From Trichocoleus sp. FACHB-46 (GTDB taxonomy: Bacteria; Cyanobacteriota; Cyanobacteriia; FACHB-46), in the NCBI RefSeq assembly GCF_014695385.1, contig NZ_JACJOD010000022.1, forward strand, positions 186,001-250,000: DNA of 64,000 nucleotides, given 5' to 3'. The notes under the pieces are model-generated. The model was not told the DNA's origin. It searched no databases and saw only the letters and a list, made by a program, of their open reading frames with translations. Each line of letters starts with the position of its first letter. Position 1 is the stretch's first letter. Both the position numbers and the translations under genes were made by a program. Of the stretch, positions 36,000-61,653 are shown piece by piece.

Positions 36000-37055
36000 A
36001 TGATGAGTAGGAGTGGGCAGGAAAGCATTCAAGCTGCGGCTGAATTGTTGGAGCAATACAGCTCGGGTAGAAGAGACTTTTGTCAAGCAGAGCTAAGCCA
36101 AGCAAATTTAATTGAAGCCGTACTCTGTGAAGCTGACCTCTCGAAATCTAATTTGACTGAATCTAATTTGATTCTGGCTAACCTCTCTCAAGCTAATTTA
36201 ACTGGAGCAGTTTTAGTTCGGGCCAACTTGAATGGAGCAGAGTTAATTAATGCCAACCTTAGTCAATCTAATCAAGTCCAAGCTGGTTTAATTGGAGCCA
36301 ATCTGAGCGGAGCCAATCTGAGCGGAGCCAATCTGAGCGGAGCCAATCTGAGCGGAGCCAATCTGAGCGGAGCCAATCTGAGCGGAGCCAATCTGAGCGG
36401 AGCCAATCTGAGCGGAGCCAATCTGAGCGGAGCCAATCTGAGCGGAGCCAATCTGAGCGGAGCCAATCTGAGTGGAATAGATTTTCACAAAGTATTTTGT
36501 AGCCTGACGACTTGTTTCCCTCCAGACTTTAATGTGGGGGCGGCAGGGATATATGTTCTAAAACCCGATATCTCTCTACAGAATGTAGATTTAAGCCAAG
36601 CTAACTTAGACTGGGTAGATCTGAATTTCGCTTCTCTACAAAAGGTTACTTTAGTCGAAGCAACATTACGTCAAGCAGGTTTGGCTTATGCCAATTTAAG
36701 CAATTCAAATTTAAGTAAAGCTAATTTAACCGCAGCCAATCTTAGCCAAGCTAACTTAGAAACTGCTAATTTGACAGCCGCCATCTTAAATGATGCGAAT
36801 TTAGGACAAGCAAAATTAGCTAAAGCTAACCTCAATCAAGCAATTCTAGTAAACGCTAATTTAAGTGAAGCTAATCTAGAATCTAGTCATCTAATTGGGG
36901 CTAATTTATGCGGAGCAGATTTAAGTAAGGCTAAGCTTTCCCAAGCAAATCTGCAAGATGCTATTTATGATCAAGGTAGTGACTTTGCCGCCGGAACTCG
37001 TTTCCCAAAGGGCTTCAATCCTGAAAGGGCTGGAGCTTCTATTCGTAATGCTTAA
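36000..37055 (+). CDS. Pentapeptide-repeat protein with internal minisatellite
   Basis: A 351-residue protein built nearly entirely of A(N/D)LxX pentapeptide repeats, forming a right-handed quadrilateral beta-helix. Residues about 99-158 are twelve identical GANLS units (36294-36473), flanked by ordinary diverged repeats. A non-repeat insert ([17 protein letters not shown]) interrupts the helix, and the end [12 protein letters not shown] is a common cap in cyanobacterial members. There is no signal peptide, so it is probably cytoplasmic. Start ATG 36000 or 36003. Function unknown. Confidence 0.88.
36294..36473 (+). repeat. 15-bp coding minisatellite, 12 units
   Basis: GGAGCCAATCTGAGC is repeated eleven times without a change; the twelfth unit ends AGT instead of AGC. 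Each unit encodes Gly-Ala-Asn-Leu-Ser. Because the units are multiples of three, gain or loss keeps the frame. Confidence 0.97.
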
Positions 37056-38853: not shown

Positions 38854-39993
38854 ATGAGCTTGCAGTTTCGCTTCGCTGTTGTCAGCGATCTCCATGTTGC
38901 CTTACCCCATACCATTTGGGAGCATCCTAATCGGTTTCACTTGGTCGAGGTGAGCATCCCTGCCCTGGAAATTATTTTGGCGCACTTAGAGCAACTAAAT
39001 CTTGATTTTTTACTCATTCCTGGCGATCTCACCCAGCATGGCGAACCCGAAAATCATGCTTGGCTGACGGAGCGATTAGCTCAACTCCCTTTTCCCACGT
39101 ACGTTGTGCCTGGTAATCATGATGTCCCAACTCCTATGCCTGATGGCACTTCGATTGGTTGGGCTGATTTTCCCACCTACTACCATAAGTTCGGCTATGA
39201 AGATACCTCTCGGATGTATTACACCTGTGAACTCTTGCCTGGAGTGCGCTTAATTGGGCTGAACTCCAACCAATTTGACGCCCAAGGCAAACAAACAGGT
39301 TATCTAGATGAGCAGCAGCTTAACTGGCTCAGTCACGTTTTAGCCGAAATCGAACCGGACGAATTAGTGCTAGTAATGCTGCATCACAACGTAGTAGAGC
39401 ACCTGCCCAACCAATCGCAACACCCATTGGGCCGCCGCTACATGCTAGACAATGCGCCAACTCTCTTGCAAATGCTGCAAGACGCGGGGGTGCAGCTTGT
39501 ATTTACTGGGCATCTGCATGTGCAGGATATTGCTCAGCACCAAGGTATTTACGAGATTACCACTGGCTCCTTGGTCAGCTATCCCCATCCCTATCGAGTT
39601 TTGCAGTTTCATCGCGATCGCCAAGGCAGACAATGGCTGCAAGTAGAATCCCATCGGGTTGACGCTGTGCCCGATTGGCCGCAACTGCAACAAGCCTCTC
39701 GTCAATGGATGGGCGATCGCAGTCATCCCTTCATGCTGAAACTGCTGACTCAACCACCGCTCAATTTGCCACCAGAGGAAGCCGAAATTTTGCTGCCGAG
39801 CCTACGCTACTTCTGGGCCAAAATTGCGGATGGGGACGCTTTGTTTGACTTCTCGCACTTTCCTTTAGCCGCACAGCAGTACTTTGAGAGCTTTAGCGCC
39901 ACCAATCGTTGGGGTAGTCCTGCATTGATTGATAACCACAGCACTTTGCTCCTGCGAACCAAGCAAGCAAAATCTTCATCTAAGCCCGTCTAG
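38854..39993 (+). CDS. Metallophosphoesterase (calcineurin-like)
   Basis: A 379-residue cytoplasmic phosphoesterase. The metal ligands appear in order: [38 protein letters not shown] and [10 protein letters not shown]. The order and spacing fit the Icc/GpdQ-like class III phosphodiesterases, which hydrolyse cyclic nucleotides or glycerophosphodiesters; the substrate here is unknown. The C-terminal 100 residues are a helical extension. It overlaps the 3' end of the convergent cheB gene by 14 bases. Confidence 0.88.
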
Positions 39994-41017
39994 TCCAGCG
40001 GCGTGAAACCTGTTCCATACAAGCAGACGCGATCGCAGGTAGAGGTAAAACTTCTTTCGCAGCACCCAGCTCAACCGCAGCTTTGGGCATGCCATAGACC
40101 ACACAAGTCTCGCGATTTTGAGCGATCGTATGCCAGCCAGCGGCGTAAAGAGATTTGAGACCCATGGCACCGTCTTTGCCCATCCCCGTGAGCAGCACTG
40201 CCACTCCTTTTCGGGGCCAGTGAGCCGCTACGCTGTTGAAAAAGACATCTACAGAGGGGCGATAAACACACTGCGATGGCTCTGGCGTATAGGCCAAAGT
40301 CAGATCTGCTTGCACAATCAAGTGATGGTTAGTACTAGCGACAGAAACAGTACCTGCCTGAAGGACTTGGCCGTGCTGGGCAATTTTTACCGGGATAGTG
40401 GTTTGCTGATTCATCCACTCAGTTAAACCGGGAGCAAATTGAGCATCAACATGCTGGATGATGACCACTGCTGCCGGAAAATTAGCTGGGAACTGGGACA
40501 AAATGGTTCGCAGCGCTTGCGGTCCTCCAGTGGAAGCGCCAATCACGACCAAAGGAGGCGTTGGATGAGCGAAACTATCTGGTTGTATCGAGTTTGGCGA
40601 TCGCGACTTTCGAGCTGTAGACTTGCCAATCAGCTTAGCTACCATCGCAATTTTAGCCAATACTTCAGTGCCACTCGCCCCCTGTCCTTGTGGCCCCAAA
40701 ATAGGCGTGTTCACTGCATCTAAAGCGCCATAACCCATTGCTTCAAACACCTTAGCGCCGTGGCCGCTCACCGTTGCGGTGACTAGTACGATAGCGCAGG
40801 GAGATTGAGCCATAATTTGGCGGGTTGCAGCGACTCCATCCAACTCAGGCATCAACAAATCCATCAAAATTAAGTCTGGGGTGTCTTGAGCGGCTTTCGT
40901 CACCGCTTCAGCTCCATTGCGAGCTATCCAAGCAACTTCGTATTCTGGAGCGCTGGCAACTACACGGCGAAGCGCTTCTACCGCCAGCAGCATGTCATTG
41001 ACGATGGCAACTCTCAT
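39980..41017 (-). CDS. cheB: CheB-type receptor methylesterase (WspF-like)
   Basis: A 345-residue response regulator with a methylesterase. The receiver has the phospho-accepting D53 in [14 protein letters not shown] and the conserved Lys region replaced by NTPI. The esterase has S162 in [14 protein letters not shown]189 in VIIQHVD and the Asp of [13 protein letters not shown]. It removes methyl groups from chemoreceptor glutamates, and in the Wsp system (WspF) this damps the signal. It is the last gene of the leftward chemosensory operon, with its start overlapping the cheA stop by 4 bases. Confidence 0.93.
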
Positions 41018-43464
41018 GCGATCGCCTCACCGATGAGATCGCGCACGGCCTTGAGGAGGGTGTCGTCATGAAAGCTACTTTTAGTTAGGTAGTAGTCCGC
41101 TCCCACTTCCAACCCCCGCATGCGGTCTTCTTCTCGGTCTTTGTACGACACAATAATCACGGGTAAAGATTTTAAGGTGGCATGTTGCTTCAATTGACCA
41201 ATCAGCTCAATCCCATTCATCCGGGGCATGTCAATATCCGTGACGACCAAATCAAAATGCCCTGTACGAATGGCATTCCAGCCATCTATACCATTAACCG
41301 CTACTTCCACCGCATATCCTTTGTTTTGCAATAACTTCCGCTCCATTTCGCGTACCGTAATGGAGTCATCTACGACTAAAACGCGCTTTTGAGCTTTGGG
41401 TGCTAGCTGGGCTGTTTTACGACTGATATGACTAAGCTGACCATTAGCTAGCAGATGATCAATTGATCGCACCATGTCTTCCACGTCGATGAGGAGGACC
41501 GGAGAGCCATCTTCCAGGAGAGCCGCCGCGCTAATATTTTTCACCTTACCCAAGCGGGAATCGAGGGGCCTAACCACTAGATCTCGCTCACCCAGAAACC
41601 GATCTACCACTAGGCCATAGCAGCTCAAGCGATCGCTGATTACGATGATCGGGAGATCCTTGGCATGACCGGAAGAGGCAGGTAGCTCTAGAACTTGATG
41701 AGCCACTACCAGACCAATATTTTGCTCATCAATGGTGAAGAACTGGCGGTTTTCTGCCACCGCGATCGCCTCTGGTTCCACCATGACAATGCGGTCAATC
41801 CGAGTCAGCGGCAAGGCATAGGGCTCACCAGAAATCTCGACTAAAAGCGTGCGAATGACTGACAAAGTCAGGGGCAATTGCAGGTAAAAAGTCATGCCTT
41901 TACCTGGTTTAGAGATCGCCCGTAAGCTCCCCCCAACTTCCTGAATCATGTTCTGCACAATATTTAGCCCCACACCCCGTCCCGAGAGCTCCGTCACCGT
42001 ATCGCTGGTGGAAAAGCCTGGTAGGAACAGAAACTCAATTAGCTCCGCTTCTGCGAGTTGAGGAGCCATCTCAGGGCTGACCAATTGTTTGCTGACGATC
42101 TTGGCGCGTAAACGCTCAAAATCCATGCCTCGTCCGTCATCAGACACGGTGATCGAAAGCATGCCGCCCTGATGTAATGCTTCTAGACGTACTAATCCTT
42201 CTCCTGGTTTACCTGCTGCTAAGCGCTCTGCGACTGATTCAATGCCGTGGTCAACGGCGTTGCGGAGCAGGTGGGTGAGCGGTGCTTCTAGCTTTTCTAA
42301 AATGTCTCGGTCTACATCTGTAGCTTTGCCCAAAACTTCAAACCGGATCTGCTTATCTAGCTGCCTACCTAAATCTCGCACCATGCGCGGAAATGCCTGC
42401 ACGCCATCGGCAAAGGGGCGCATGTGACTCGCCAAAACTTCGCGATAGAGGCGATCGGACAAATTGGCAGAACGACGGGCAAATAGTTCCAATTCATTCA
42501 AGCGATCGCTCAACATCTGACGGCAATCAGTGGCTTGCTGCCGCACGGCATTGAGGTAGTTTTCGCTGCGCTGATTTAAGGGCTGCCCAACTAAAGATTC
42601 CTGCAACTTTTCTAACAAAGTGGACAGATCTGTTTGTTGCCGCCTCAGTTTTAATAAGGAATCGGCAAATGGTTGGAGCCAATTCGCTTCTACTAGCGAT
42701 TCTCCAGCCAATCCCATCAAACGGCTGAGGTTGTCGGCACTGACTCGAACCACCCGATCTAAGTTGTCGGCTGTCTGCATACCAGACGAGCTGAGCGGTG
42801 TCGCTTTAGCTGTTGCGGATAACGACGCGCCGGAAGCAACCGGATCAGCGATCGCTGTGGTGGCAATTTGGCTCTCTGCCATAGTTAAGCCCACAGTTGA
42901 CAGATGCGTTGCGATCGCTTCTGCTTCCAGAATCGGTGCTTGATTCAGTTCCTCAGGCGCGAGCGTACCAACTGGAGTAATTTCTACTGAAACGGTTGCG
43001 TCAGAAAGGACTGCTAGTTCGTTGGCGAGAGATTGCGATTGTGGATCTGGTTGTGGGTCTAGTAAAGTGGCGATCGCCCTGACCAGCGCTTCAATCCCCT
43101 CCGTTTGCTCGGCTAGCCACCCCTGTAATTGGGCCTCTGAAACTTGGCTTAACCGTAACAACAGATCAACGCCTTGGAGCAGTACATCAATATGCTCTGC
43201 CGCTAAAGTTGCAGTGCCCATCTGAGCACTCGCAAAGCAATCTTCCATCACATGAGCCAGTCGGACGCCCACCTCTAAATCAACAATTCGCGCGGCTCCT
43301 TTAATCGAGTGAGCGGCACGCATCAAGGACTCCAAGGTCTCAGGCAGCCCAGGATGAGTTTCTAACTCCAGCAAACCGTGGTTTAAGACTGCTGCTTGCG
43401 CCTCTACCTCCATCCGGAACAATTCCAGCATGGAGAAATGGCTAAAATCCTGATTTGCGCTCAC
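41014..43464 (-). CDS. cheA: Hybrid CheA histidine kinase with C-terminal receiver (WspE-like)
   Basis: An 816-residue chemosensory kinase. In order: an Hpt domain with phospho-accepting H52 ([11 protein letters not shown]); an Ala/Thr-rich linker; the dimerisation region; the ATPase domain ([32 protein letters not shown]); a CheW-like coupling domain; and a receiver with phospho-accepting D743 ([15 protein letters not shown]). The receiver motif [20 protein letters not shown] is close to my memory of WspE. It has no CheY-binding P2 domain that I can see. It overlaps cheB (4 bases) and the CheW gene (1 base), so all three are translationally coupled. Confidence 0.93.
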
Positions 43465-44141
43465 TACAGCAGCCTCCGGTTCAAGGTGTAAAACAGCAGC
43501 TCGTCATCTAAATAGTTCACACTATGGTTTTGCCAGTTGATGATGCCCTTGGTGTAGGTATCCTTGGCATTCGAGAGCGTTGCAGGTAAATTGCGGATGT
43601 CATCGGGGTGAATGCGCTGCACACCATAGACTTCATCAACGGGAAAGACCCAGCTACTTTTCTGGCTTTGCACCACCACCATGCGCTGATAGGCCATCTG
43701 ATGCGTGGTTGAAGCAGCAGCCACCTGCCCAATACCGAGCAGATCACGCAGAGAGATACACAATTGCAACTCACCGCGAATATTCACCAAGCCTTGAAAG
43801 ATCTGGTTACTCCGGTGCGGCAAAGTCCGAACTGAGCTAACTTGGGTAATCTCCTGAAACAACAGCGCTGATAGGGCTAACCATTCCTGGCCCAAGCGAA
43901 AGATCACTACTGATAGAGTGCCCGCCGTCTGCTCTATTTTCTCCTCAGCTAAGGAGCTAGCCCACTCCAGTAGATAATTAGCCGGGATCTCTCGCTCTAG
44001 TAAACTGCGTCCCGCTTGGGCGTAGACGGGACAGTTGCGGCAATGAATCATCTCCAAAAGTTCGGGGCAGGCGCGATCGCCGGAGACACCGATGGTATTC
44101 CAGCAGCGTTCGGAAGGAGATGACAAGTTTAGTTGATTCAT
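43464..44141 (-). CDS. CheW-like coupling protein with N-terminal Cys motif (WspD-like)
   Basis: A 225-residue CheW-domain protein. Before the CheW domain (residues about 80-215, VVIFRLGQEWLALSALLFQE ... GLVNIRGELQLCISL) there is a 70-residue head with four cysteines, C13, C25, C34 and C37, in CWNTIGVSGDRACPELLE and HCRNCPVY. As I recall, this GDRxCPEL/HCRNCPVY head is the mark of the WspD branch and distinguishes it from ordinary CheW. The cysteines may bind metal or sense redox state. It follows the MCP by 44 bases and overlaps cheA by one base. Confidence 0.87.
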   Translation of the reverse strand: MNQLNLSSPSERCWNTIGVSGDRACPELLEMIHCRNCPVYAQAGRSLLEREIPANYLLEWASSLAEEKIEQTAGTLSVVIFRLGQEWLALSALLFQEITQVSSVRTLPHRSNQIFQGLVNIRGELQLCISLRDLLGIGQVAAASTTHQMAYQRMVVVQSQKSSWVFPVDEVYGVQRIHPDDIRNLPATLSNAKDTYTKGIINWQNHSVNYLDDELLFYTLNRRLL

Positions 44142-44185
44142 AAGCTGCCGTAAATTTGAACCGAGACCGTTCTGATGTAAGAGCT

Positions 44186-45814
44186 TTAAGGGGAAATTGG
44201 GCGATCGCTGACTTGAAACCGAGCAATCTCTTGATGTAGCCCTTGCGCTACTTCGCCTAGCTGGGCGATCGCTCGATTAATTTCTTGAAGTGAATCAGCG
44301 GTTTGCGTCGATACATCACTCAGTTGCACCATGACATCACTAATCTGTTGTGCCCCTTGTGCCTGAGTTTCCATTCCTTGCGTCACAATCAAAAATTGCG
44401 GAGTCAGTGTTGTCACCTGCTCAATAATCTGACCCATTTGCTGGCTAATTTCCCTGACTTCCTCAGCTCCCTGCTTCACTTCCTGGTTGAACTTATCCAT
44501 TTCCATCACCCCAGTGGAGACAGAAGCCTGCATTTCTTTCACCGTTTGCTCAATATCTAAAGTAGCCACAGCGGTTTGGTCGGCCAAGCGGCGAATCTCT
44601 CTCGCCACTACTGCAAAGCCCAACCCCTGTTCTCCTGCTTTTTCCGCCTCGATCGCAGCATTTAAGGAGAGTAAATTCGTCTGGTCAGCCACTTTGGTAA
44701 TGGTCTTAATCACACCATTAATGCTTTGGGCCTTTTCGCGAATCACCTCCAGCCTGGAGGTAATGGAGGTGGTTGACCTCATTAATTGCTGCATCGAATT
44801 GGCCATAGCCGTGAGATTAACCTGGCTCACGCTGGCACTAGCAGCCGTAGTCTGAGACTTAGCAGCTACCACTTCCATCGTTTGCACCAAGTCTTCAGAA
44901 GTAACCGCAATCTGTTTTGCGGTCGCCACTACCTCTCGGGTCGAAGCCACTTGTTCTGTCACGGTGGCCTCTAGTTGTTTCCCAAAAGCAGTCAGCTTGG
45001 TGATAGAAGCTGTCACTTGAATGCCAGATTGTTGGACTTGACCAACGAAGCCACTGAGTCCCCGAATCATCCTTTGAAAGGCGAGGAGAAGCTGACCGAT
45101 TTCATTGCGATCGCTAATATCAGTTTTCAACTTTACGGTTAAATCACCGACAGAGATTTTCTCCGCAACATCTACAATCTCCGCAATCTGAGACTCCACT
45201 TGCCGAGAAAGCCAAAGCCCAATAATCAGATTAAAAACAACAGATATAACTACACCCAAAAACACTGAAACAACAACTAGTTTTTGGGCGGATTCAGATT
45301 CTTGCTCCAAGCGCTGTAACGCAGCCTGCTCTACCTGCAAAATTTGTTGTCGAGCTTCGTCAATATCATCCATTCGCAGAGATTTCATCAGAGCTTTAGC
45401 TTCAACCAATTGGCCTGAGTCAATTAGCTCAAAAATCTTCTGAGCAATTGCTTCATTTCGGTTCACCTTTTTGGCAAGATCCGCTATTTGCTGCTGACGC
45501 TCTAAACTCTGCGCTTGCTGATCCAGCTTTCCATAAGATTGATTGAATAGTTCTAAACCTTGATCATAGGATTGGATATAGCTTTTATCTTCTGGAAATA
45601 GCAGATAGCCTCGGACATTTCTGACCATTCTGGCAACGCCCAGCACCATTTGATCAACCTCAATAATGGTAGTCTGAGCTATCTTTTCTTCTGCCTGTCT
45701 TTGAAAAGCATTGCTTGTGTTTACATGAACGATTCCCCCTAGCCCTACTAAACACAAAATTGGTAGGGAGTATCCTATCAAGATCCGGTTTCTTAGTTTC
45801 TTATGCTTCAACAT
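44186..45814 (-). CDS. Methyl-accepting chemotaxis protein
   Basis: From ATG 45814 the receptor has 542 residues. A first membrane span follows the basic start ([17 protein letters not shown]), then a periplasmic helical domain with [16 protein letters not shown] that fits a four-helix bundle, and a second span ([20 protein letters not shown]). HAMP and a cytoplasmic coiled coil follow, with the kinase-interaction tip [20 protein letters not shown]. It has no C-terminal methylation pentapeptide. Its ATG lies inside the end of an upstream MCP remnant (45801-46047), so translation may be coupled to that fragment. WspA-like in position. Confidence 0.92.
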
Positions 45815-46047
45815 AGGCTTTGTGCTTAGATGAGTTGACTTTGAAGCGGGAAATCCCCTCACTTAGTATCTGGGCTACCTCTTTCAGCAACTCGATCGCC
45901 TGATTAATTTCCTTAAGAGAATCTGCCGTCTGCTCAGAGGTATCTCGCAGTTGCATCATGGCTTCGTTGATTTGTTGAGCGCCTTGAGCCTGGCCTTCCA
46001 TGCCTTGATTGACCGTGAGCAATCTGGGTGCTAGCGCCTCTACCTGG
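45801..46047 (-). pseudogene. 3' remnant of a third MCP gene
   Basis: About 81 codons in one frame match the C-terminal end of both neighbouring MCPs: QVEALAPRLLTVNQGMEGQA, then GAQQINEAMMQLRDTSEQTA and the ending GISRFKV. The upstream 480 codons are missing, and the match begins right after the stop of the previous MCP. The fragment ends KHKAYVEA, overlapping the start of the next MCP. It looks like the leftover of a middle MCP deleted by recombination between tandem copies. Confidence 0.85.
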
Positions 46048-46051
46048 CAAT

Positions 46052-47761
46052 CTAATAGCTATAGGCAGGTTGGGGTTCAAGCGCGATCGCGCCTACCTTA
46101 AAGCGAGAAATTTCTTGGCGCAAACCCTGAGCTGCTTGGTTCAACTGCTCGATCGCTCGATTAATCTCCTGCAAGGCATCCGCCGTCTGCACAGAGGTTT
46201 CGCTCAACTGCACCATTGCCTCACTGATTTGCTGCGCTCCTTGAGATTGTGCTTCCATCCCTTGATTCACTACAGAAAAGCGGGGTGATAGTGCTTGTAC
46301 TTGCTCAATAATTTCTCCTAACTGCTCACTGATAGTGCCTACATCCTCCACGCCTCGGCCCACTTCTTTGGTAAACTTGTCCATCTCCATCACTCCGGTG
46401 GAGACAGAAGATTGCATCTCCTTCACCATCTGCTCAATATCGAGGGTAGCCACAGCGGTTTGGTCGGCTAATCGACGAATTTCCCTTGCCACCACAGCAA
46501 AGCCCAAACCGTATTCCCCAGCTTTCTCTGCTTCAATAGCCGCATTGAGCGAGAGAAGATTAGTCTGGTCTGCCACTTTAGTAATCGTGTTAACCACACT
46601 GTTAATGTTGTTGGCCTTCTCACTAATAATTTCCAGCTTGGCGGAAATGGAATTAGTAGCAGCCACTAGCTGACGCATCGTAGTTGCCATTCGCAGCAAG
46701 TCTTCTTGGTTGGTAGCAGCAGCCACCGTTGTCTCTTGAGACATGGTTGCGACTTCTTCCATCGTGTTAGCCAGTTCTCCCGAAGTGGCAGCAATTTCTT
46801 TTGCGGTCACTACTACTTCATTGGTTGCCGCGACCTGCTCTGTGACGGTAGCTTCCAATTGTTTGCCAGAGGCTGCAATCTTCGTTGCCGAAGTTGTCAC
46901 TTGAATACCCGATTGCTGTACCTGGCGGATCAGGGAGTTGAGATTATGAGTCATAGATTGAAAAGCGACCAACAGCTTGTCAACTTCATCGTTGCTGTTA
47001 TTAGCACTCTCAACCTGCGTAGTTAAATCTCCGGCTGAAATTTGTTCTGCGACCACTACCACATTGGCAACTTTTGCCCCCAAGGGCTTCGCGATCGTGC
47101 GACTGAGATAGATGCCCAAAGCGATCGCTACTGTTGGTCCTGTCACTAACGTAAATATGACCCAGAAAGATGTCTGATTACTATCCTGAATAGCCATAAC
47201 CTGAGCGGCCTTCGCAACTTCAGTATTAGTGTCTAGAAGCTTAAGCAGATCCTCGGTAGCTGCATTAAAAGTAGGACGTTCTTGTTGAGACAGAAAGCGG
47301 TTGAGAGTTTGCACTTCAGATTCAGTTAAACCACTTTGCTTAGCTTCTTCGTAAAGCTGAAGAAATCGTTCTTGATCTGTTTTCCAATCCTCCCAGTGAG
47401 GCTGGAAAGCGGACTTGTAAAGCCTTGCCTCTTCAGGGGTTTGAGGCGTTGACTCGTATTGTTTAAAGCCAACATCAATTTGCTCCCAAGCCTTCTTGAT
47501 TCTGGTTAGCTCAGCCTCTTTATCATTCTCGCTAATTTCAGGATTAACCAAAACTCGCATAGAGGACTGAATTTGAGTTTGTCCCTCATTAATCTTCCAA
47601 ATACCAGCCACACTAGGAAGACTATTTTTAGTCAGAGTGTCAATATGTTTATTTAGACGGGAGATACCTAACCATCCGACACTTGCAGCAACTAAAACGA
47701 TCGCACTCATTACCCCAAATGAGCCAATCAAGCGATTCTGTAGTGACATGTTCTTGAGCAT
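46052..47761 (-). CDS. Methyl-accepting chemotaxis protein
   Basis: A 569-residue receptor with a first span ([20 protein letters not shown]), a periplasmic domain of about 160 residues with [20 protein letters not shown], and a second span ([21 protein letters not shown]). HAMP and the signalling helix follow, with tip [21 protein letters not shown]. The two MCPs are nearly identical around the tip but differ in their sensor domains, so they should feed different signals to the same CheA. Start ATG 47761; 331 bases separate it from the upstream cheR. Confidence 0.93.
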
Positions 47762-48092
47762 AAGATTTTTTCTATCAAGGTAAAGCTACAACAGAAGTTT
47801 GCGATCGCCTGCCATAACAAGCCACTTCAGCAAATACAACTCGGAATCCCGTATGGTACAGGATTGTGTCTACCTGCTTAGCCACGAAATCTTGAGAGGT
47901 CAAAATCAAACTTCATCAAGAACGTTGAACAGGAATAGATAACTTATATTTCCCTAATCTCAGCTCGGATTCACTAAAACTTTGCATCCGCCAGAAGCAG
48001 TTTTAGAAACACAAAGTTACTAAAAACAGGTCTCCACAAAGGCTTAAATTAATCTTAAATGTAGGTTTTAAGCTAAGAATTCAGCATTATAT
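47762..48092. other. 331-base gap inside the chemosensory cluster
   Basis: No gene or clear terminator is seen. The region probably holds a second promoter for the MCP-cheW-cheA-cheB part. Confidence 0.4.
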
Positions 48093-49436
48093 TTAGTGCT
48101 CAGATAAATGAATTCGCTGCAACCGTTGCCGCAACACCAGAGCACTCGCCAGATCACCCGATTGCTCTTTTAGTAAGACCAAGTGCAGCAGAGCTTCTTC
48201 GTGGTGCGGTTGTAAGTAGACAGCTTTGCGAAAACATTGCTCAGCTTCAGTTTCTTGGTCTACAGCTTGATAGAGTTGCCCTAAAAGGCAATAAGCCTCA
48301 GCATTATTACGATTTTGGTTGAGATACGCCTCACAGACTGCAACTGCTTCAACCAATTGCCCGCCATCCGCTAGCGTTTTGGCAGCAGTCAAAGATGCTT
48401 TTTGGGAGTCAGACACAGCAGTAGAGCGAGCATTCACCAATGTAGTTTTTGCCTCAATGCTAGGAACATTTGTCGGTTGCAACTCAAGCGCTTTGCGAGT
48501 GGATGTTGTATTTCTACTAGCTTTGGCTGGAGAAGCATTCCGCTTTTGTCCCTGCTGATTGTAAGTCATCAATACGGGGACTTTATCTTGAGTGCTAGAC
48601 TCAACCTTACGGAAAGCAAATGCTAAAGCGTGCCGAATGGGACTAAATCGGGATGGAGGCAGTTGTCCCATTTCTGAGTGACCAACAAAGAACAAGCCAT
48701 TTCTAACTAACAAACGATCTAAACGATGAATTGTTTGCTGCCTTGCCGCCTGATCTAAATAAATTAGTAAGTTGCGGCAAAAAACCACATCATAAGCTGG
48801 CTGATTCCAGAAAAGATTGGAATCTAATACATTTCCTTGAATAAAACTAACTGTTTTTCTGACAGATTCATTGAGCGAATACCCAGCTGTAACTCGCTGA
48901 AAGTATTTCTCCTTCAAAAAACTATTTTTTTCGCCTCCCTGGCTCAAGCTTTCTGCCTTGCCGATCGCAGCTTTGCCGCGAAATGAGTACTCGTCATAAA
49001 CAGCTAGTTGAGCTTTTTGTAGAGCCTTTTGGCTAATATCAACAGCATCAACTTGAAATTGTTCTGCTCCTAACCCTGCTTCTAACAAAGCGATCGCCAT
49101 TGAATAAGGTTCTTCCCCAGTCGAGCAAGGCGCACTCAAGATCCTGAAAACTTGATTGGGGTGGGCAGGCAACCACTCCGACATCACATAGTGCGCCAAT
49201 AACACGAACGGCTCGCGATCGCGAAAGAACCAAGTTTCTGGCACCACCACGGTCTCGATCAGGGCTGCCAATTCTGTCCCCGAAGTGTGCAATTGAGTTA
49301 GATAAGCTGCCATGTCTACTAGGCCACAGCTTGCCATGCGAGATCGAACCGCTCTAGCGATCGTATTAGAACCAATGGCAGCGGCATTCAAGCCAATCTT
49401 CTGCCTGAGTAAATTCTCGATTGTAGCTTCTATCAT
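48093..49436 (-). CDS. cheR: CheR methyltransferase with C-terminal TPR repeats (WspC-like)
   Basis: A 447-residue protein. The N-terminal 270 residues are CheR, with the SAM-binding motif CSTGEEPYS (104-112), the acidic VDAVDISQKAL, and the segment YDVVFCRNLLIYLD. A linker follows, then TPR repeats at about 340-447 (EAYCLLGQLYQAVDQETEAE, then CFRKAVYLQPHHEEALLHLV). CheR with C-terminal TPRs is the form seen in Wsp clusters (WspC). It methylates glutamates of the cluster's MCPs. It starts 11 bases after the upstream cheW gene. Confidence 0.92.
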   Translation of the reverse strand: MIEATIENLLRQKIGLNAAAIGSNTIARAVRSRMASCGLVDMAAYLTQLHTSGTELAALIETVVVPETWFFRDREPFVLLAHYVMSEWLPAHPNQVFRILSAPCSTGEEPYSMAIALLEAGLGAEQFQVDAVDISQKALQKAQLAVYDEYSFRGKAAIGKAESLSQGGEKNSFLKEKYFQRVTAGYSLNESVRKTVSFIQGNVLDSNLFWNQPAYDVVFCRNLLIYLDQAARQQTIHRLDRLLVRNGLFFVGHSEMGQLPPSRFSPIRHALAFAFRKVESSTQDKVPVLMTYNQQGQKRNASPAKASRNTTSTRKALELQPTNVPSIEAKTTLVNARSTAVSDSQKASLTAAKTLADGGQLVEAVAVCEAYLNQNRNNAEAYCLLGQLYQAVDQETEAEQCFRKAVYLQPHHEEALLHLVLLKEQSGDLASALVLRQRLQRIHLSEH

Positions 49437-49447
49437 TCTCAGGTACT

Positions 49448-49915
49448 TTATTGCACAACTGGCAGATCAATTACTTGCGTTGGAGGTAGCTGCACTGGAG
49501 ATAATAGGTGTTCCACATCAAGGCACTGGATCACACCTTGGGTATCCATTAATTTTTTGCCTAAATAAGGAGCTGTATCCACCACCATTCCCGCAGGAAC
49601 CAGCGTAGTACTAGACGTATTAAAAGTTTGCGTCACTCTCTCTGCTAGTAAGCCTAATATTTGTGTCTGGTTCTCGGCACTGAGAAAGCGAGCCACAATA
49701 ATTCGAGTACTTAAGTAGGAGCGACAAGGACGACGACGAACCAGCTGGCATAGATCTACCACAGGCACCATATGACTCCGGTAGCGCAACAGACCAGATA
49801 CATAGGCAGGTGCTTGGTGCGGTTTTGTCAGTCCTATTAGCGGTAGCACCTCCACCACCTGCTGGCTCTCCAAGGCATAACGCTCATCATCAATTGCAAA
49901 GAGCAGCATCAACAT
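49448..49915 (-). CDS. cheW: CheW coupling protein (WspB-like)
   Basis: A 155-residue single CheW domain (LLFAIDDERYALESQQVVEV, then SGLLRYRSHMVPVVDLCQLV) that links receptors to CheA. It is the first gene of the leftward cluster. It starts at ATG 49915 or at the ATG two codons later, 11 bases before cheR. The cluster has two CheW proteins, as in Wsp (WspB and WspD). Confidence 0.9.
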   Translation of the reverse strand: MLMLLFAIDDERYALESQQVVEVLPLIGLTKPHQAPAYVSGLLRYRSHMVPVVDLCQLVRRRPCRSYLSTRIIVARFLSAENQTQILGLLAERVTQTFNTSSTTLVPAGMVVDTAPYLGKKLMDTQGVIQCLDVEHLLSPVQLPPTQVIDLPVVQ

Positions 49916-50221
49916 AAGGCAATCCCACTAAGCCGAACAGAATTTCTAGCAACTCAGCCAATTTCCGGCGCGATCGCTGAGGTTCACTTCTAGAATGACC
50001 AAATTAGGGCCAGACTTATCCAGTCAGTTGATGGAAGAAAATTAGCCAAAATGCGGATTAAGGAACTATACCTTATGAACTAGACTAACAGAATATACTC
50101 TCAAAAAACAGTATTATTATTAACTCTATTAGGTGCAATCAGTCGGTTTATCACTTACTTCAAGTTTTCCTCATCACACACATTCATGCCCTAAATACTA
50201 GCCATTTCATCAGCCTGGCTT
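49916..50221. promoter_or_regulatory. Shared divergent promoter region of the Wsp-like cluster
   Basis: 306 bases with no gene, between the divergent cheW and receiver-kinase genes. It must carry promoters in both directions, which suggests common control. No specific boxes could be assigned. Confidence 0.5.
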
Positions 50222-51553
50222 ATGATGTCAATGCCACCAGAAATTGTTACTAAAAGTCCGGAAGCATTCAGTGAATCCACCATACTTTCACCTGCTCCCC
50301 AAATTGTTGTTTTGCTCATTGATGATCAAATTATTATTGGTGAAGCAATTCGGCGGATGCTGGCTTCCGAACCAGATGTAATTTTTCATTATTGTAACGA
50401 TGCTGCGCAAGCAATCCATCTTGCTGAAGAAGTTGCTCCAACAGTCATTTTGCAAGATCTAGTTATGCCTAACATCGACGGGTTGATGTTAGTTCGTCAG
50501 TTCCGCTCTAATCCCATTACTTGCAATATCCCATTAATTGTACTTTCGACCAAAGATGAACCGAAAGTCAAAGCGGAAGCTTTTGCATTAGGAATTAATG
50601 ACTACTTAGTTAAACTCCCCGATAAAATCGAATTAGTTGCTCGCCTGCGATATCATTCCAGAGCTTATCTTAATCATCAAGCCCAGACTGCCGCACTGAC
50701 GGCGCAAGCTCAAACTCAGAAGCTAGAACAAGCTTTGCAAGAGTTGCGAAAAACGCAATCGCAGTTAATTCAAACCGAGAAGATGTCGAGCTTGGGCCAG
50801 ATGGTGGCAGGAGTAGCCCATGAAATTAATAATCCTGTTAACTTCATCTATGGCAATCTCAAGCATATTGAAAATTATATTCAAGAGCTACTAGATTTAG
50901 TTCATCTTTATCAAGAAGAATATCCTCAGCCAAGCACAAAAATTCAAAGTTATATTGAAACAATTGATTTAGATTTTGTAGCCCAAGATCTCCCTAAAAC
51001 CCTATCCTCGATGAAAATAGGTGCAGATCGAATTCGTCAAATTGTCTTATCCCTACGTAATTTTTCTCGGCTTGATCAAGCTGAAATGAAACGAGTTAAT
51101 TTGCACGAAGGCATTGACAGTACTCTTCTTATTCTGAATCATCGTATCAAGCAAGGAATTACTATTATTAAGAGCTACTATGACTTACCTTTAGTCGAGT
51201 GTTACCCCGCTCAGCTCAATCAGGTATTCATGAATATTCTGAATAATGCGATGGACGCGCTGTTAGAAGACTCAGGCAAAGCCCACAAACAAATCACTAT
51301 CCAAACTGAACTAACGAATTCTCATCAAGTTCAGGTCCGTATTCAAGATAACGGTTGTGGGATTCCGCTAGAAATTAAGAATAAATTGTTCGATCCCTTT
51401 TTTACTACTAAACCCGTAGGCCAAGGCACTGGTTTAGGTCTCGCCATTTGCTATCAAATTGTCGAAAAGCACCAAGGTGAAATCGAAATTGGTTCTGGCC
51501 CAGAGGGGGGAGCAGAGTTTATTATTCGTTTACCAGTTCAGCACTTTTCTTGA
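50222..51553 (+). CDS. WspR-type receiver fused to a histidine kinase
   Basis: A 443-residue protein. The receiver (about 27-150) has acidic D34/D35, phospho-accepting D79 in [15 protein letters not shown]110 and K131, and ends [12 protein letters not shown]. Segments such as [36 protein letters not shown] and [20 protein letters not shown] match what I remember of the P. aeruginosa WspR receiver almost word for word. Instead of GGDEF, a coiled coil (155-185) leads to a histidine kinase: H200 in [14 protein letters not shown]-box [14 protein letters not shown]1 IQDNGCGIP and G2 [10 protein letters not shown]. The kinase core is a paralogue of the one at 7021-8511. It is the probable output of the adjacent chemosensory cluster (inference). 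Confidence 0.88.
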
Positions 51554-51726: not shown

Positions 51727-52911
51727 CTAAAATTTTGGCAGGGGCTGTTGATTTAGAAGAGCAGTATAAACTTGGAGTAGTTTTCTTGCAGCTACATCCC
51801 AAGTATAGTTTTGAAAAATAAACTGACGGGCGCGATCGCCCAGCTCCTTGGCCTGCTCCAAATTACCCAAATATTTCGCTAGAGCATCTGAAATTGAATC
51901 AACATTAGTATCAACTATGCACGCGGCATCTGCTTTTGCTGCTTCAGGAAAATTGCAACCTGTAGTAATAACACAAGGTAAACCAGAGGCCATACCTTCG
52001 AGCACAGACATGCTGAATCCTTCAGAATAGGAAGGAGCAACATAAATACTGGCAGCGGCAAGGGCAGCATACTTTAAGCTACCTGTCAGTAGCCCTGTGA
52101 ACGTTACAGCGTTTATACATCCTGCCTGTAAAAAATAACTCTGGGCGGTAGACGAAAAGCCAGTGTTGTCTGGTCCTGCAACAATCAAATGAGCTTGTGG
52201 AAAATGGCGGTGAACTTTAGCAAAAGCAGGAGCCAGTAGATCTAATCCTTTCTTAGGATCAATTCGACCGAGGAATAATACTATAGTTTTATTCTGAAGA
52301 GACGGGAATTTCTCAAAGAGAGGTTCTGTTTCCGGCAGTGCTTTAAAGTCTTCAGGATGAACACCGTTATAAATGATGACAGTAGGTGTATTTAATCCAA
52401 GAGATTTAGCATTGTCAGCTTCAGTTCCACAAGAAAACTGAATTGTACTCGCAGACTGAAGTGCAGGCTTTTCAACGACAGAATAATAAACCTTTTTCTT
52501 CCATACTTTATAGGATAAAGCCCAAGGTTCTAGCATGCCGTGTGCTGTCATCACATAGGGAATCCGATAAAGCTTACATATACAGTGAATTATTGAAACC
52601 AACGGAGAAAAGAGAGTATTAGTATGAACTATGTCATAATCTTCAACATTCTTAAGCATCCACTTAACTAAAGAAGAGCTAACAATAAAATCATTTTTAT
52701 TGAAGCAGGGAAAGTATTGAACTCTATAGGCTCCCTCCTCAATCCAAACATTCAATGGTTTGGATAACTTAGAGGGATTGCTAGCATTAGTTGTAATAAC
52801 ATCAACAGTAACACCCAAACAAGCAAGCCCCTTAGCTATTCCCAGCACAATCTTAGGGATACCACCATAAACCTCTCCCATATAGGGTGTAACGAGCAAA
52901 ATTTTCATCAA
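51727..52911 (-). CDS. GT4 glycosyltransferase
   Basis: A 394-residue GT-B enzyme. The N-terminal Rossmann domain starts ILLVTPYMGEVYGGIPKIVL. The C-terminal GT1-type donor domain has FLGRIDPKKGLDLLAPAF and the ExFGxxxxEG-type motif as PSYSEGFSMSVLEGMASGLP. It adds a sugar to the growing repeat unit on the cytoplasmic side. It is the last gene of the leftward polysaccharide cluster. Start ATG 52911 or the next codon. Confidence 0.88.
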   Translation of the reverse strand: MMKILLVTPYMGEVYGGIPKIVLGIAKGLACLGVTVDVITTNASNPSKLSKPLNVWIEEGAYRVQYFPCFNKNDFIVSSSLVKWMLKNVEDYDIVHTNTLFSPLVSIIHCICKLYRIPYVMTAHGMLEPWALSYKVWKKKVYYSVVEKPALQSASTIQFSCGTEADNAKSLGLNTPTVIIYNGVHPEDFKALPETEPLFEKFPSLQNKTIVLFLGRIDPKKGLDLLAPAFAKVHRHFPQAHLIVAGPDNTGFSSTAQSYFLQAGCINAVTFTGLLTGSLKYAALAAASIYVAPSYSEGFSMSVLEGMASGLPCVITTGCNFPEAAKADAACIVDTNVDSISDALAKYLGNLEQAKELGDRARQFIFQNYTWDVAARKLLQVYTALLNQQPLPKF

Positions 52912-52942
52912 CTTTAAGCTCTGGTTGATTAATGTATCTTTA

Positions 52943-54118
52943 TTAGGCAGCGCTCATTGCGGATTTGGCTGCTTGCATAAGTCCATCGGCAAAGTTACTA
53001 GGTGAGTAGTTAGTAATAATTTTTTGGCTTACTTTTCCCATTTGAGCACGCAGTAATGAGCTTGACCTATGGATATTAACTAGCTTACCTATCATGTCCT
53101 CTACATTCTCTGGATCGAATAGAAAACCATTATGGTTATTGTGAATAAGCTCATGGCAGGCACCTACAGTCCGACTACAAAGAATTGGCAATCCAGCTGC
53201 ACAGGCTTCGTTAACTACAAGCCCCCATTGCTCTTGTAATGCAGGGTGTATAAAAGCTTCAGCAAGACCATACCAATCTCCTAAGTCTTGGTAACTAATA
53301 AAACCAGGTAGATGGATGCAATAGTTTAGCCCTTTGTTCAGAATCAAGCTACGAATAGATGGTTCTTCTACTCCAGTACCACAAATTACCAGATCCCAAG
53401 CATGAGCTTCTTCTACTTGCTCACGATAAGCAACAAAAGATTCTATAAGTCGATGAATGTTTTTACGTTTAATAAATCGGGTTGCAGCAAGATAGTAAGG
53501 TTTATTAGGAATTTGAGGCTGACGTAATCTTGTAGTATTGGGATCCCGTCTAGCCTTCTCGGCTTGCTGACTAAAGTAGTCATTGTCGACTACGTCATAG
53601 CCAAGAAAAATGCGATCGGGACGAAATCCCAGTTGAACTAGATAGTCACGATGTAAATTACCGCCTACTAGTGCAGCGTCGTATCGCTTGACATACAGCC
53701 AAGATTTAATCATTTCCTTCCAAAATGTACGTCTAGCATCATCCCACTTGCTTTCACTCATCAAAATTGATAAAGCGGCATGCCGTTTGCACCACAATAA
53801 AGCTGCACGAGAAATAGGAAAACCCCAACCAGGAATGGCAACAACAGTTGGTTGTAGCGTATTCAGACAATCAAATAATAGAGATGTTGCAGGTATAGAA
53901 GAATTCGTACTATTTAGGGCGGTAGCCGATGTAGACAAAAGAGTTTTGAGGGGAAATGTAATCTCACGGCCCATGTCTCCCCAAGGATGTTCTTTGGTAG
54001 TATCTGTAACTTGTACTGCTGTAAACTGCCAATCTCTGCGTTGGCAAGCATCGTAGGTAGCTCGCAAACGGGCCGCGTGGTAACCCCCAATGTTATCGAA
54101 AATAACAACTACATGCAT
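52943..54118 (-). CDS. GT4 glycosyltransferase
   Basis: A 391-residue GT-B enzyme. The N-terminus (VVIFDNIGGYHAARLRATYD) is followed by YLAATRFIKRKNIHRLIESF and the donor-site motif FIHPALQEQWGLVVNEACAA, where E-x7-E is visible (Q-E-Q-W-G-L-V-V-N-E). The acceptor is unknown. It lies 31 bases before the next glycosyltransferase gene and 37 bases after the polymerase-like gene. Confidence 0.87.
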   Translation of the reverse strand: MHVVVIFDNIGGYHAARLRATYDACQRRDWQFTAVQVTDTTKEHPWGDMGREITFPLKTLLSTSATALNSTNSSIPATSLLFDCLNTLQPTVVAIPGWGFPISRAALLWCKRHAALSILMSESKWDDARRTFWKEMIKSWLYVKRYDAALVGGNLHRDYLVQLGFRPDRIFLGYDVVDNDYFSQQAEKARRDPNTTRLRQPQIPNKPYYLAATRFIKRKNIHRLIESFVAYREQVEEAHAWDLVICGTGVEEPSIRSLILNKGLNYCIHLPGFISYQDLGDWYGLAEAFIHPALQEQWGLVVNEACAAGLPILCSRTVGACHELIHNNHNGFLFDPENVEDMIGKLVNIHRSSSLLRAQMGKVSQKIITNYSPSNFADGLMQAAKSAMSAA

Positions 54119-54155
54119 AGCCGAAAAATTAGTACTTAGTTGCTAGTTAATTGCG

Positions 54156-55496
54156 TCATGAGTGAGGAAGCCTCATGGGTGGATGCGGATTGGAGGGATA
54201 AGGATGAGTTGATGGATACATCCTGAGAGTTAGATTCCGACGTTTCATCCAGAGCAATAAAAAGCAGGGCCAAAAAGCCATACCGATCCAAGCATAAATT
54301 CCAGCTAAATCTCCGCCTCTTAGCAGTGGGATAAGAGACGAGCAAAGAATCGCACGAACTAAAACCCCTGCAAAAGGCTGAAGCTGAGTACTATACCGAA
54401 CAACCTTGGCAATGACTAAGCCGTATAAAGGAGCAAAAAAGAGTATGCCAAATAGTCCAATTTCTGCATAAAACGATCCAAATATAGTTGGTGAAATTCC
54501 TACAGTGCCCCTACCACCTGCGATTGTAAAGCCTAACTTATTCATGTATCCTCCTACAGGTTTCTCAGGCCACCAAGCTCTAGGGATTGGCCGTATAAAT
54601 ATTTCTAGATGCTCCATTCCCCAACGGAAGTCTAGTTGCTCAGGATAAACATTTTTCAACAATACAAAGCCATCTAACATATTGGCGTCTTCAGCGCCTA
54701 ATGCTCGTTCCAGCGCAATTTGATTGAGAGATTGGTTAGCTATGTTGGGATTACGCATGGCTCCACTAATAGCAAATACAGCCATAGCTAATATGAGAGA
54801 GAGCGTTAACAAAGCCAAACGTATTTTTGGTCGGTAAAATGAAGAAACAATGATTCCAGCAGCAATCATCCATCCTAAAAACTGGAAGCGAGCCTGACTT
54901 CCAAAAGTCAAGTAAAATACACTTGTTAAAATGGAGAGCGCCATCACTTTATTAATGAGAGAAGTTATTGCTCCAAACCGCCAAAGACAGACAACAAGAA
55001 TTGCAATTCCTACTAAAGCAAAAGGAAACAAGTACAAATAGTTATTAATTTGAAAGGCTAGTGAGCTTCCGGCGCTGAGCTGGGTTGCTATTTGAGAGCG
55101 AGTAAGAATGACTAATGGCAAACAAAATAAACCAAGAAGAAGGGTCTTGGGCCGCAACCATTGTAGAACTGAGCGATCACTCGGTGGAATTGCAACTGCT
55201 AAGCTTCGCCTTTGACAAAGCATATAAGTGCTAAGCAAACAAATTTCCCCAAGAGTAATATACATTAGAGCCTCAAGGGCGGCTTCTTGAGTTATTGGTT
55301 TTGATATAAACCAACTTAACTTAATCCATTGGTTAATCCCATGCTCAACAGCCCAGTAGCGATAAGAAGCAACATAAAATAGAAAGCTACTAATAATTAA
55401 TGGAATTTCATCATTGCGCTTCAAAAACCAGATAACACTTAGTACTAGGAAGGCTATTTGAGTAAAGGCAAGTTCAGGATATTCAAATAGTGGCAT
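54156..55496 (-). CDS. Polysaccharide polymerase-like membrane protein (Wzy/O-antigen type)
   Basis: A 446-residue integral membrane protein with about 10-12 hydrophobic spans and a large outward loop around residues 250-330 (ALGAEDANMLDGFVLLKNVY, PIPRAWWPEKPVGGYMNKLG). The pattern fits the O-antigen/repeat-unit polymerase group, which are poorly conserved; the PRxxWPxKP segment is a common mark of WzyE-like enzymes. Its start overlaps the stop of the preceding glycosyltransferase gene by 14 bases. It would polymerise repeat units at the periplasmic face. Confidence 0.78.
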   Translation of the reverse strand: MPLFEYPELAFTQIAFLVLSVIWFLKRNDEIPLIISSFLFYVASYRYWAVEHGINQWIKLSWFISKPITQEAALEALMYITLGEICLLSTYMLCQRRSLAVAIPPSDRSVLQWLRPKTLLLGLFCLPLVILTRSQIATQLSAGSSLAFQINNYLYLFPFALVGIAILVVCLWRFGAITSLINKVMALSILTSVFYLTFGSQARFQFLGWMIAAGIIVSSFYRPKIRLALLTLSLILAMAVFAISGAMRNPNIANQSLNQIALERALGAEDANMLDGFVLLKNVYPEQLDFRWGMEHLEIFIRPIPRAWWPEKPVGGYMNKLGFTIAGGRGTVGISPTIFGSFYAEIGLFGILFFAPLYGLVIAKVVRYSTQLQPFAGVLVRAILCSSLIPLLRGGDLAGIYAWIGMAFWPCFLLLWMKRRNLTLRMYPSTHPYPSNPHPPMRLPHS

Positions 55497-56739
55497 AAGG
55501 TAAGGCCTGGAGATTGTTTTGGAGTGTTGCCAAACCGAAATGCTCCATACTAGTAGATTGCCGAGAAAAATTTACTAATTGTTGAGGATTATTTAAACAA
55601 AAGAGGAGAGCTTCGGCGATCGCTGCTCCAGTCACGTTCTGCAATATCAATCCGCTTACTCCATCTTTCACGACTGCACCACAAAATCTGGACGCAATTG
55701 TTGGGAGTTTCCAGGCTTGCGCTTCCAGCTGTGTTAGTCCAAACCCATCCGAAAGAGTTGGAAGTAGAAAAATATCTGCCTGTTGATAGTATTGAGCTGT
55801 TGCGCTGCGAGGAACAGAACCAATCCACCGCACCTGTTCATGCACCTTATCCTGTTGGGGTCTAGCAATGCCTGGAGAACCAACTAGCCAGAATTCTATG
55901 TGTTGGTCACGTAGGTGTTCAGCCGCTTCTAGCAGTGCAACAATGCCCTTGCGTAAGATAACCTGACCAAGAAACAGCACTCGGAGCGGACGTTCAGCTG
56001 AGAAAGCAGAAGGGTAGGTTCGCACAAAGTCACGCGCTTGCTCAGGAGGTTCATAGGCAAGAGGAATGATATCAATCTTGTTAGCGGGTACTCCTGCTTG
56101 CTGCAAAGCTTGGCTTGACCACTGCGAGTTAACTAAAATCCGGTCAGCTAATGAGCATTCTTCCTGCCATCTGACCCAGTAGTGGGGTGGTGCCGGTTGC
56201 CAACTAGATTCATAGATCGAGTGTCTCGCGTATTCCTCTAGAACCAACTTTTCCTCAGTTGGCCCTGGATCAATTTGACCAAGGATAGTGCGCCAACCTC
56301 TGGTCTTGGCGTAACGGAACAGTTCTAAGGTAGCGTAACTGTAGGCAAAGAGGGTAGGGGGAGAATTGAGAGAGGAGTGTTGAGGAGCGATCGCATTTAG
56401 TACCTGCACTGCCCGTTTTTGGAACCAGTGATTACGGTCGATAATACGTTCCCATCCTGAGGTTTTCTGAAGGCGTTGAGTTAGTTCAAAGCGCATCAAA
56501 GAACCAGTGAAGGCGTGGACAGAGGTTTGGGCTAAATCTACATGGAACCGTTCACGTAAATTAGTGAACAGAGGTGTAGGCAGCTGGTTCAGTGCAGACT
56601 GTGGTGGAACCCAGGCATCTGTAATCAGGTGGGCGAGTTGTCCGGTCTGATGTAAAGCCCGTGGGATAGCGTAATGTTCACGCGCTCCTAGTTGACAACA
56701 GATCCAGGATGGCAATTCTTCATTTCTCAAAGTAGCCAC
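55483..56739 (-). CDS. GT4 glycosyltransferase
   Basis: A 418-residue GT-B enzyme, with a C-terminal domain containing LFLGQVILRKGIVALLEAAE, then FLLPTLSDGFGLTQLEAQAW (E-x7-E region) and LPTIASRFCGAVVKDGVSG. The N-terminal half is larger than in its neighbours. It overlaps the acyltransferase gene by 13 bases and the polymerase gene by 14 bases, so these three genes are tightly coupled. Confidence 0.87.
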   Translation of the reverse strand: MATLRNEELPSWICCQLGAREHYAIPRALHQTGQLAHLITDAWVPPQSALNQLPTPLFTNLRERFHVDLAQTSVHAFTGSLMRFELTQRLQKTSGWERIIDRNHWFQKRAVQVLNAIAPQHSSLNSPPTLFAYSYATLELFRYAKTRGWRTILGQIDPGPTEEKLVLEEYARHSIYESSWQPAPPHYWVRWQEECSLADRILVNSQWSSQALQQAGVPANKIDIIPLAYEPPEQARDFVRTYPSAFSAERPLRVLFLGQVILRKGIVALLEAAEHLRDQHIEFWLVGSPGIARPQQDKVHEQVRWIGSVPRSATAQYYQQADIFLLPTLSDGFGLTQLEAQAWKLPTIASRFCGAVVKDGVSGLILQNVTGAAIAEALLFCLNNPQQLVNFSRQSTSMEHFGLATLQNNLQALPYATI

Positions 56740-57275
56740 GGTTGGTAGTTCAGCGTGTAGTGCAAGTCAGGCGATCGCTTTTTCACGAATCGGGCTGGGC
56801 TACCGGCAACAATGGTGTAAGGTTCCACATCTTTGGTCACGACAGAACCCGCACCCACTACGGCACCCTCGCCAATCCTGACTCCTGGCAAAATAATCGC
56901 TCGGTAAGCAATCCAAACGCGATCGCCTATGATTACATCTCCACCCTTATCGCCAAACTCAGACGACTGTGGATCATGTCCCAGGGTTAAGATTGTCGCT
57001 TCTGGGCCAATGGAGACATCAGAACCCGTTTGGATCTGGTAGTGGCGACCATCAAATAGGCAGCCGAAGTTAAGCACATTGCGATCGCCCAGATACACCT
57101 TTCTCCCATTCAAAAACCGACATCCCATTTGAACAGAAGTCCCCAACCCAACCTTTGCTAAATAGGCTTTGAGATAAGTCATACGAATTTTACGAGATGG
57201 CAAGTTTCCAAGAAGCTGATTGTAGCTGTAGCTCAAAACACTACCTGTAAAAGCTTTAAAGTTTACATGTGACAT
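56727..57275 (-). CDS. Hexapeptide-repeat acyltransferase (WcaF/maltose O-acetyltransferase-like)
   Basis: A 182-residue left-handed beta-helix acyltransferase. Hexapeptide repeats run from about 40 to 165 (VQMGCRFLNGRKVYLGDRNV ... IIGDRVWIAYRAIILPGVRI ... GEGAVVGAGSVVTKDVEPYT). It probably acetylates a sugar of the exported polymer. A truncated second copy lies at 58358-58607, on the other side of cysC. Confidence 0.9.
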   Translation of the reverse strand: MSHVNFKAFTGSVLSYSYNQLLGNLPSRKIRMTYLKAYLAKVGLGTSVQMGCRFLNGRKVYLGDRNVLNFGCLFDGRHYQIQTGSDVSIGPEATILTLGHDPQSSEFGDKGGDVIIGDRVWIAYRAIILPGVRIGEGAVVGAGSVVTKDVEPYTIVAGSPARFVKKRSPDLHYTLNYQPWLL

Positions 57276-57301
57276 GCTACTGGTACTTTTCTTTTAAGCT
57301 T

Positions 57302-57773
57302 TTATATCATCGAGTTTTTACGAATAAATCCAGCCCCAATCCCGGGTTTAGGATTGCGAAGTTTAGTATCTTCATGTAGCAACTCTGGTATACAGGGTAG
57401 TTCTACCGCCCAGCAATTCTTACCTAACCTGGGCATAGTAAACGCGATATCATTCATTTGTTTATGCACCAACTCTAGGTTGCATGGCAAGTGGGCAGGG
57501 GAAGTACTGCCCTTGCCCCGATACACTCGAAAGCTCCAAGGAATCCGCCAAGGCCCAACCACGAGATGAAGCACGACCAGATGCACGCCTCGTTTGCCAT
57601 GTAACATCGAGACTAAGCGCTCAAAGGCCTTGAACTTGCCTCGTTTTCCCAATCATTAAATCATCAATTACTTGGAGATGCGGTCGCAATGAGACTAGAA
57701 TTGCTTTTTGAGATGCTGGCCCAGTGAGTGCGTCAGCCTTAGTGTATGTTTCTGTTCCACTGCTAAAATTCAT
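57302..57773 (-). pseudogene. Frameshifted transposase remnant
   Basis: From ATG 57773 the frame encodes MNFSSGTETYTKADALTG and continues to LQVIDDLMIGK; near 57650 an extra A in a run of four shifts the frame, and the rest continues as KRGKFKAFERLVSMLHGKRG to about 57302. The VIDD segment, the VLHLVVGPWRIPWSFRVYRG region and the basic character fit an insertion-sequence DDE transposase N-terminal half. The C-terminal half and the terminal repeats are not seen. IS family not assignable with confidence. Confidence 0.72.
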
Positions 57774-57787
57774 ATCCTTGCTAAGGC

Positions 57788-59413: not shown

Positions 59414-59416
59414 GAG

Positions 59417-60589: not shown

Positions 60590-60668
60590 GACTCAATTTT
60601 GTTGAGTTTGGAATGAGCTAATTACTTCGAGGCCTTAGGGAACAATACACCTTAGATTTACAATAAAT

Positions 60669-61601: not shown

Positions 61602-61653
61602 ATCATTAGCCATTAGATAAACTCTGCCCTTATGCTAAACATAATTTTCTCTC

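Follow-up and report, generated by a model that had tools for sequence, protein, structure and literature searches.

A cyanobacterial Wsp-type chemosensory gene set with a predicted receiver–histidine kinase output

A 64,000-nucleotide stretch of the genome of Trichocoleus sp. FACHB-46 (hereafter called the window) in all likelihood encodes a cyanobacterial chemosensory pathway of the Wsp type (ACF class) with a kinase-type output, in which signals would run from MCPs through CheA to a response regulator that joins a receiver to a histidine kinase (REC-HK). Two PsaA/PsaB genes mark the genome as cyanobacterial. Pseudomonas uses Wsp to sense surfaces, and the usual output enzyme there makes c-di-GMP.

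The gene set consists of seven che genes and one divergently transcribed regulator gene, separated by an intergenic region:

49448–49915, minus strand: WspB-like CheW, 155 aa (Pfam CheW); such a gene heads most cyanobacterial loci
48093–49436, minus strand: WspC-like CheR-TPR methyltransferase, 447 aa (CheR and TPR domains; CheR tree)
46052–47761, minus strand: WspA-like MCP with a 4-helix-bundle sensor, 569 aa (Pfam 4HB_MCP_1, HAMP, MCPsignal)
44186–45862, minus strand: second MCP, 558 aa (Pfam HAMP and MCPsignal; sensor region without a Pfam match)
43464–44141, minus strand: WspD-like CheW with a four-cysteine head, CX11CX8CX2C, 225 aa (C13, C25, C34 and C37 invariant)
41014–43464, minus strand: WspE-like CheA-REC hybrid kinase, 816 aa (Hpt, HATPase, CheW, REC; CheA tree)
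39980–41017, minus strand: WspF-like CheB methylesterase, 345 aa (REC and CheB_methylest; NF009206 above cut-off)
50222–51553, plus strand: response regulator, WspR-type REC with HisKA-HATPase, 443 aa, candidate for the WspR/WspH role (Pfam; PDB match)
49916–50221, no strand: 306 bases of intergenic DNA separating the wspB-like gene from the divergent regulator gene

All seven che genes are intact by open reading frames and Pfam matches, and they occupy 39980–49915, where the initial annotation had placed them. CheA, CheB, CheR and the divergent REC-HK all have their catalytic and phosphoryl motifs. Read leftward, the order is CheW, CheR-TPR, MCP, MCP, CheW with the four-cysteine head, CheA-REC and CheB, that is, B-C-A-A-D-E-F. 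From the wspB-like to the wspF-like gene, consecutive gaps measure 11, 331, 189, 44, −1 and −4 bases; the D-E-F genes overlap, and the 331- and 189-base gaps flank the first MCP gene.

With an MCP, two CheWs, a CheR-TPR, a CheA-REC and a CheB in one cluster, the content is that of WspA-F. The initial annotation had called the set complete, and as regards content this stands. The order differs from A-B-C-D-E-F; it is close to that of most cyanobacterial Wsp loci, where B-C-A(n)-D-E-F is usual and several loci also carry extra MCPs. Because the position of the MCPs breaks proteobacterial synteny, we describe the locus as Wsp-type, cyanobacterial branch, and not as a proteobacterial wsp operon. 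The regulator gene at 50222–51553, which lies outside the annotated interval, had gone unrecognized and belongs to the system. The window also encodes a pentapeptide-repeat protein (36000–37055) in which nearly identical LSGAN repeats follow one another.

Sequence comparison strongly supports the Wsp identity of the locus. A tree of CheA cores (IQ-TREE, 53 sequences) unites the window CheA with 29 other cyanobacterial sequences, four proteobacterial WspE proteins (Burkholderia, Cupriavidus, Azoarcus and Mesorhizobium) and four further sequences of planctomycete, lentisphaerote and desulfobacterial origin (Planctomycetota, Lentisphaerota and Desulfatirhabdium) in one clade with support of 100/100 and a branch of 1.38. 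Within it, the cyanobacterial Wsp-type CheAs form a single group (99/97). The CheAs of the genome's three other CheA loci all fall outside the Wsp clade. Similarly, every CheR from a Wsp locus lies on one side of a branch with SH-aLRT 99, in a tree that holds few outside CheRs, on long branches. The receiver segment that had been read as pointing to WspE recurs as a motif in Burkholderia WspE.

The head of the WspD-like protein has the pattern CX11CX8CX2C, with small insertions in three sequences. None of its four cysteines varies among the 31 aligned WspD proteins or across the wider locus set, from Burkholderia to cyanobacteria, and the same head is present in WspD of Cupriavidus, Azoarcus and Mesorhizobium. 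The trees and the head together run counter to the outcome that the initial annotation had named as its refutation, a clustering of CheA and CheR with taxis systems. Its reading of a full Wsp-type set, with the CheW head marking WspD, agrees with the seven intact genes, both trees, the invariant cysteines and the WspR-type receiver described below.

This head (residues 13–37 of the 43464–44141 product), which does not vary between phyla, has the look of a putative metal site. AlphaFold models the CheW domain of the protein well and the head poorly (pLDDT about 44–57). NCBIfam has no family for the WspD-like protein, and titles and abstracts in the open-access literature revealed no apparent description of the WspD cysteine head. 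Lone WspD-like proteins with the four-cysteine head occur outside any che cluster at two loci (L071, 9661–10422; L070, 3279–4025), and the genomes concerned (G143 and G105, respectively) have a REC-SpoIIE regulator elsewhere.

The receiver of the divergent REC-HK is of the WspR type. Its best PDB matches are 3bre (1e-50) and 3i5a (1e-48), whose entry names say response regulator/GGDEF and which we take to be Pseudomonas WspR; other response regulators among the PDB matches listed, such as PleD, score about 1e-13, and a bacteriophytochrome–regulator fusion scores 1e-17. The receiver is 62% identical to that of Burkholderia WspH. No other receiver in the genome is of the WspR type (it scores 222 bits, the runner-up 78), and it qualifies as a dedicated one. 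The output domain is HisKA-HATPase and not GGDEF, so the protein is not of the R type. The fusion of receiver to histidine kinase is that of the H type; the kinase, however, is not homologous end to end with that of Burkholderia WspH, the alignment covering only 73 residues at 29% identity. By sequence, REC-HK resembles WspH in architecture, and we do not class it as WspH. The gene is divergent and upstream here, whereas adjacent regulators at other cyanobacterial loci follow CheB on the same strand, a difference that counts against its assignment.

How widespread is this receiver, and what does it carry? In a sample with one genome per species, WspD is present in 28 of 386 cyanobacterial genomes (23 of 143 genera). 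At a strict receiver threshold (E 1e-38), 23 of about 373 genomes have a WspR-type receiver, and each of these, with no exception, is among the 28 with WspD; we treated the samples of 386 and 373 genomes as overlapping, since the genome identifiers agree. The probability of this co-occurrence by chance is about 4e-32 if genomes are assumed independent, a figure that kinship makes too small. Because the receiver is found only in genomes with WspD, we regard it as a dedicated part of the system.

The outputs of the 28 cyanobacterial WspR-type regulators are class III cyclases (13), histidine kinases (9) and SpoIIE-type phosphatases (6); none of the 28 receivers carries GGDEF. Among the Proteobacteria sampled, where genes of the unannotated Burkholderia and Cupriavidus records were taken from open reading frames, the receiver output is GGDEF, or a kinase in Burkholderia. 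A regulator from Lentisphaerota carries SpoIIE, and the planctomycete one looks alike by sequence. Mapped on the CheA tree, the output changed at least five times within cyanobacteria and eight times overall. A tree of the kinase modules gives three changes, with a single clade not rejected (p-AU 0.26); the kinase outputs of cyanobacteria may stem from one recruitment or from several.

The kinase module of REC-HK has 43 other copies in the same genome, most at about 50–66% identity. Since it is close to these paralogues and barely aligns to Burkholderia WspH, the kinase outputs of the window and of WspH were very probably recruited independently. We consider it likely that cyanobacterial Wsp has held on to one dedicated WspR-type receiver while the output attached to it has switched between kinase, class III cyclase and SpoIIE phosphatase, with no diguanylate cyclase. 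On this view the kinase form in the window would have an origin separate from that of Burkholderia WspH, the receiver having been fused to a cyanobacterial kinase module that abounds in the genome.

Four WspD-bearing cyanobacterial genomes have a Wsp locus and, at the thresholds used, no WspR-type receiver (genomes G193, G255, G262 and G278; loci L068, L064, L061 and L074). The core may therefore also work alone, and in these sets signalling may end at the receiver that CheA itself carries. At another locus, in Brasilonema angustatum (L010, 15655–19807), the genes between CheB and CheW encode a REC-SpoIIE phosphatase, a DUF6272 protein, a weak STAS match and an MscS-type mechanosensitive channel. 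A further locus (L011) has the same layout. A partner-switching output with a channel is a possible reading of these two Wsp loci.

Core orthology, a dedicated receiver and intact catalytic motifs are established at the level of sequence, and a working scheme can be proposed from them. By homology with Wsp, the MCPs would gate the WspE-like CheA. CheA would phosphorylate CheB, bringing about adaptation that CheR-TPR counters, and would also transfer phosphoryl groups to the WspR-type receiver of the divergent REC-HK. Phosphorylation of this receiver would then alter how active the attached histidine kinase is, and the kinase would relay the signal to a further response regulator as its predicted target. 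The output of the pathway is probably gene expression rather than motility. There is a published precedent, which we count in favour of the REC–kinase regulator: Burkholderia WspH, a WspR-type receiver with a kinase, is required for the wrinkly phenotype and leaves c-di-GMP unchanged, and the kinase-type system there affects biofilm via a DNA-binding regulator to which suppressor mutations point (PMC8552884, PMC4324302).

Could the set instead serve taxis, in the form of phototaxis or pilus control, and only look like Wsp? Cyanobacteria do use CheA systems in phototaxis (PMC5812497), and taxis-type sets are encoded elsewhere in this genome; on contig C11, for example, a PATAN-REC gene is paired with CheY. 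But the CheA and CheR of the locus group with Wsp, apart from the other systems of the genome, and unlike contig C11 the locus has no CheY or PATAN gene; we regard a taxis role as highly improbable. The initial annotation had reported no CheY, CheC, flagellar or pilus gene, which is right for the neighbourhood and does not extend to the genome, with its three other CheA loci and its PATAN-REC/CheY set. Pseudomonas-like control of c-di-GMP, exerted by a GGDEF protein whose gene lies elsewhere in the genome, is a little easier to entertain: the genome has about 20 GGDEF proteins, and WspR homologues elsewhere in Phormidesmis have been proposed from fold modelling (PMC4971617). Yet the genome's one WspR-type receiver is joined to a kinase, none of the 28 cyanobacterial receivers of this type carries GGDEF, and the Burkholderia kinase-type system does not alter c-di-GMP (PMC8552884). 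We judge such an output improbable.

The kinase-type reading is compatible with a more specific proposal, that the system directly controls the polysaccharide genes beside it. The cluster that the initial annotation noted next door is indeed present: glycosyltransferase, sulfotransferase and APS kinase genes at 51727–63815 adjoin the Wsp locus, and Wsp and WspH control biofilm polysaccharide in proteobacteria (PMC8552884, PMC4324302). The functional link then drawn is a matter of proximity, however, for no homologue of any flanking gene lies near the other Wsp loci examined. As the flanks compared are mostly about 5 kb, this negative carries little weight. Direct control is conceivable, though doubtful. 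The flanking polysaccharide genes found no support as parts of the system in these flanks. Within the cluster, APS kinase and sulfotransferase genes stand among glycosyltransferases (57788–61613), and their sequences suggest a sulfated polysaccharide as product.

A Wsp system in Phormidesmis was published in 2016 (PMC4971617), so the system is not new to cyanobacteria. Three points appear new, against an open-access literature that leaves room for earlier reports elsewhere: a kinase-type form built on a non-homologous kinase module, a receiver that strictly accompanies WspD, and a sample of outputs from which GGDEF is missing. A 2021 survey described Wsp as exclusive to beta- and gammaproteobacteria and the kinase type as restricted to Burkholderia (PMC8552884); the locus contradicts both restrictions. 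The gene at 50222–51553 is a candidate for the output of cyanobacterial Wsp, a question dating from 2016. The systems also offer a natural series with constant input and receiver and a changing output enzyme; with it, the re-wiring of an array away from c-di-GMP, whether towards a phosphorelay, a cyclic nucleotide or partner switching, can be put to the test.

Three known systems invite comparison, within a general class described in 2012. That survey of CheR-TPR clusters (the ACF class) extends to Cyanobacteria and reports multidomain regulators, of which about 40% contain kinase modules (PMC3447774); the parts of it drawn on here treat the class in general, without tracking the WspR-type receiver or a census of cyanobacterial Wsp. 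One is the wspB-C-A-D-E-F set of Phormidesmis priestleyi BC1401, with two further cyanobacteria named in the same report (PMC4971617). Like the locus in the window, it is a cyanobacterial set without a GGDEF WspR at the regulator position, and its order is B-C-A-D-E-F; there the WspR position holds a class III adenylate cyclase, whereas here the regulator is a divergent, upstream REC–histidine kinase, and there are two MCPs. The R-type systems of Pseudomonas and other proteobacteria share the homologous core, the WspD head and the receiver family, and differ in having the GGDEF diguanylate cyclase WspR as output and the order A-B-C-D-E-F-R. Burkholderia cenocepacia (H type; L016) shares the WspA-F set and, encoded upstream, a WspR-type receiver with a histidine kinase (PMC8552884, PMC4324302). 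By contrast with the close receivers, the two kinases have little in common; moreover, WspA comes first and wspH lies on the same strand in Burkholderia, whereas the regulator gene of the window is divergent.
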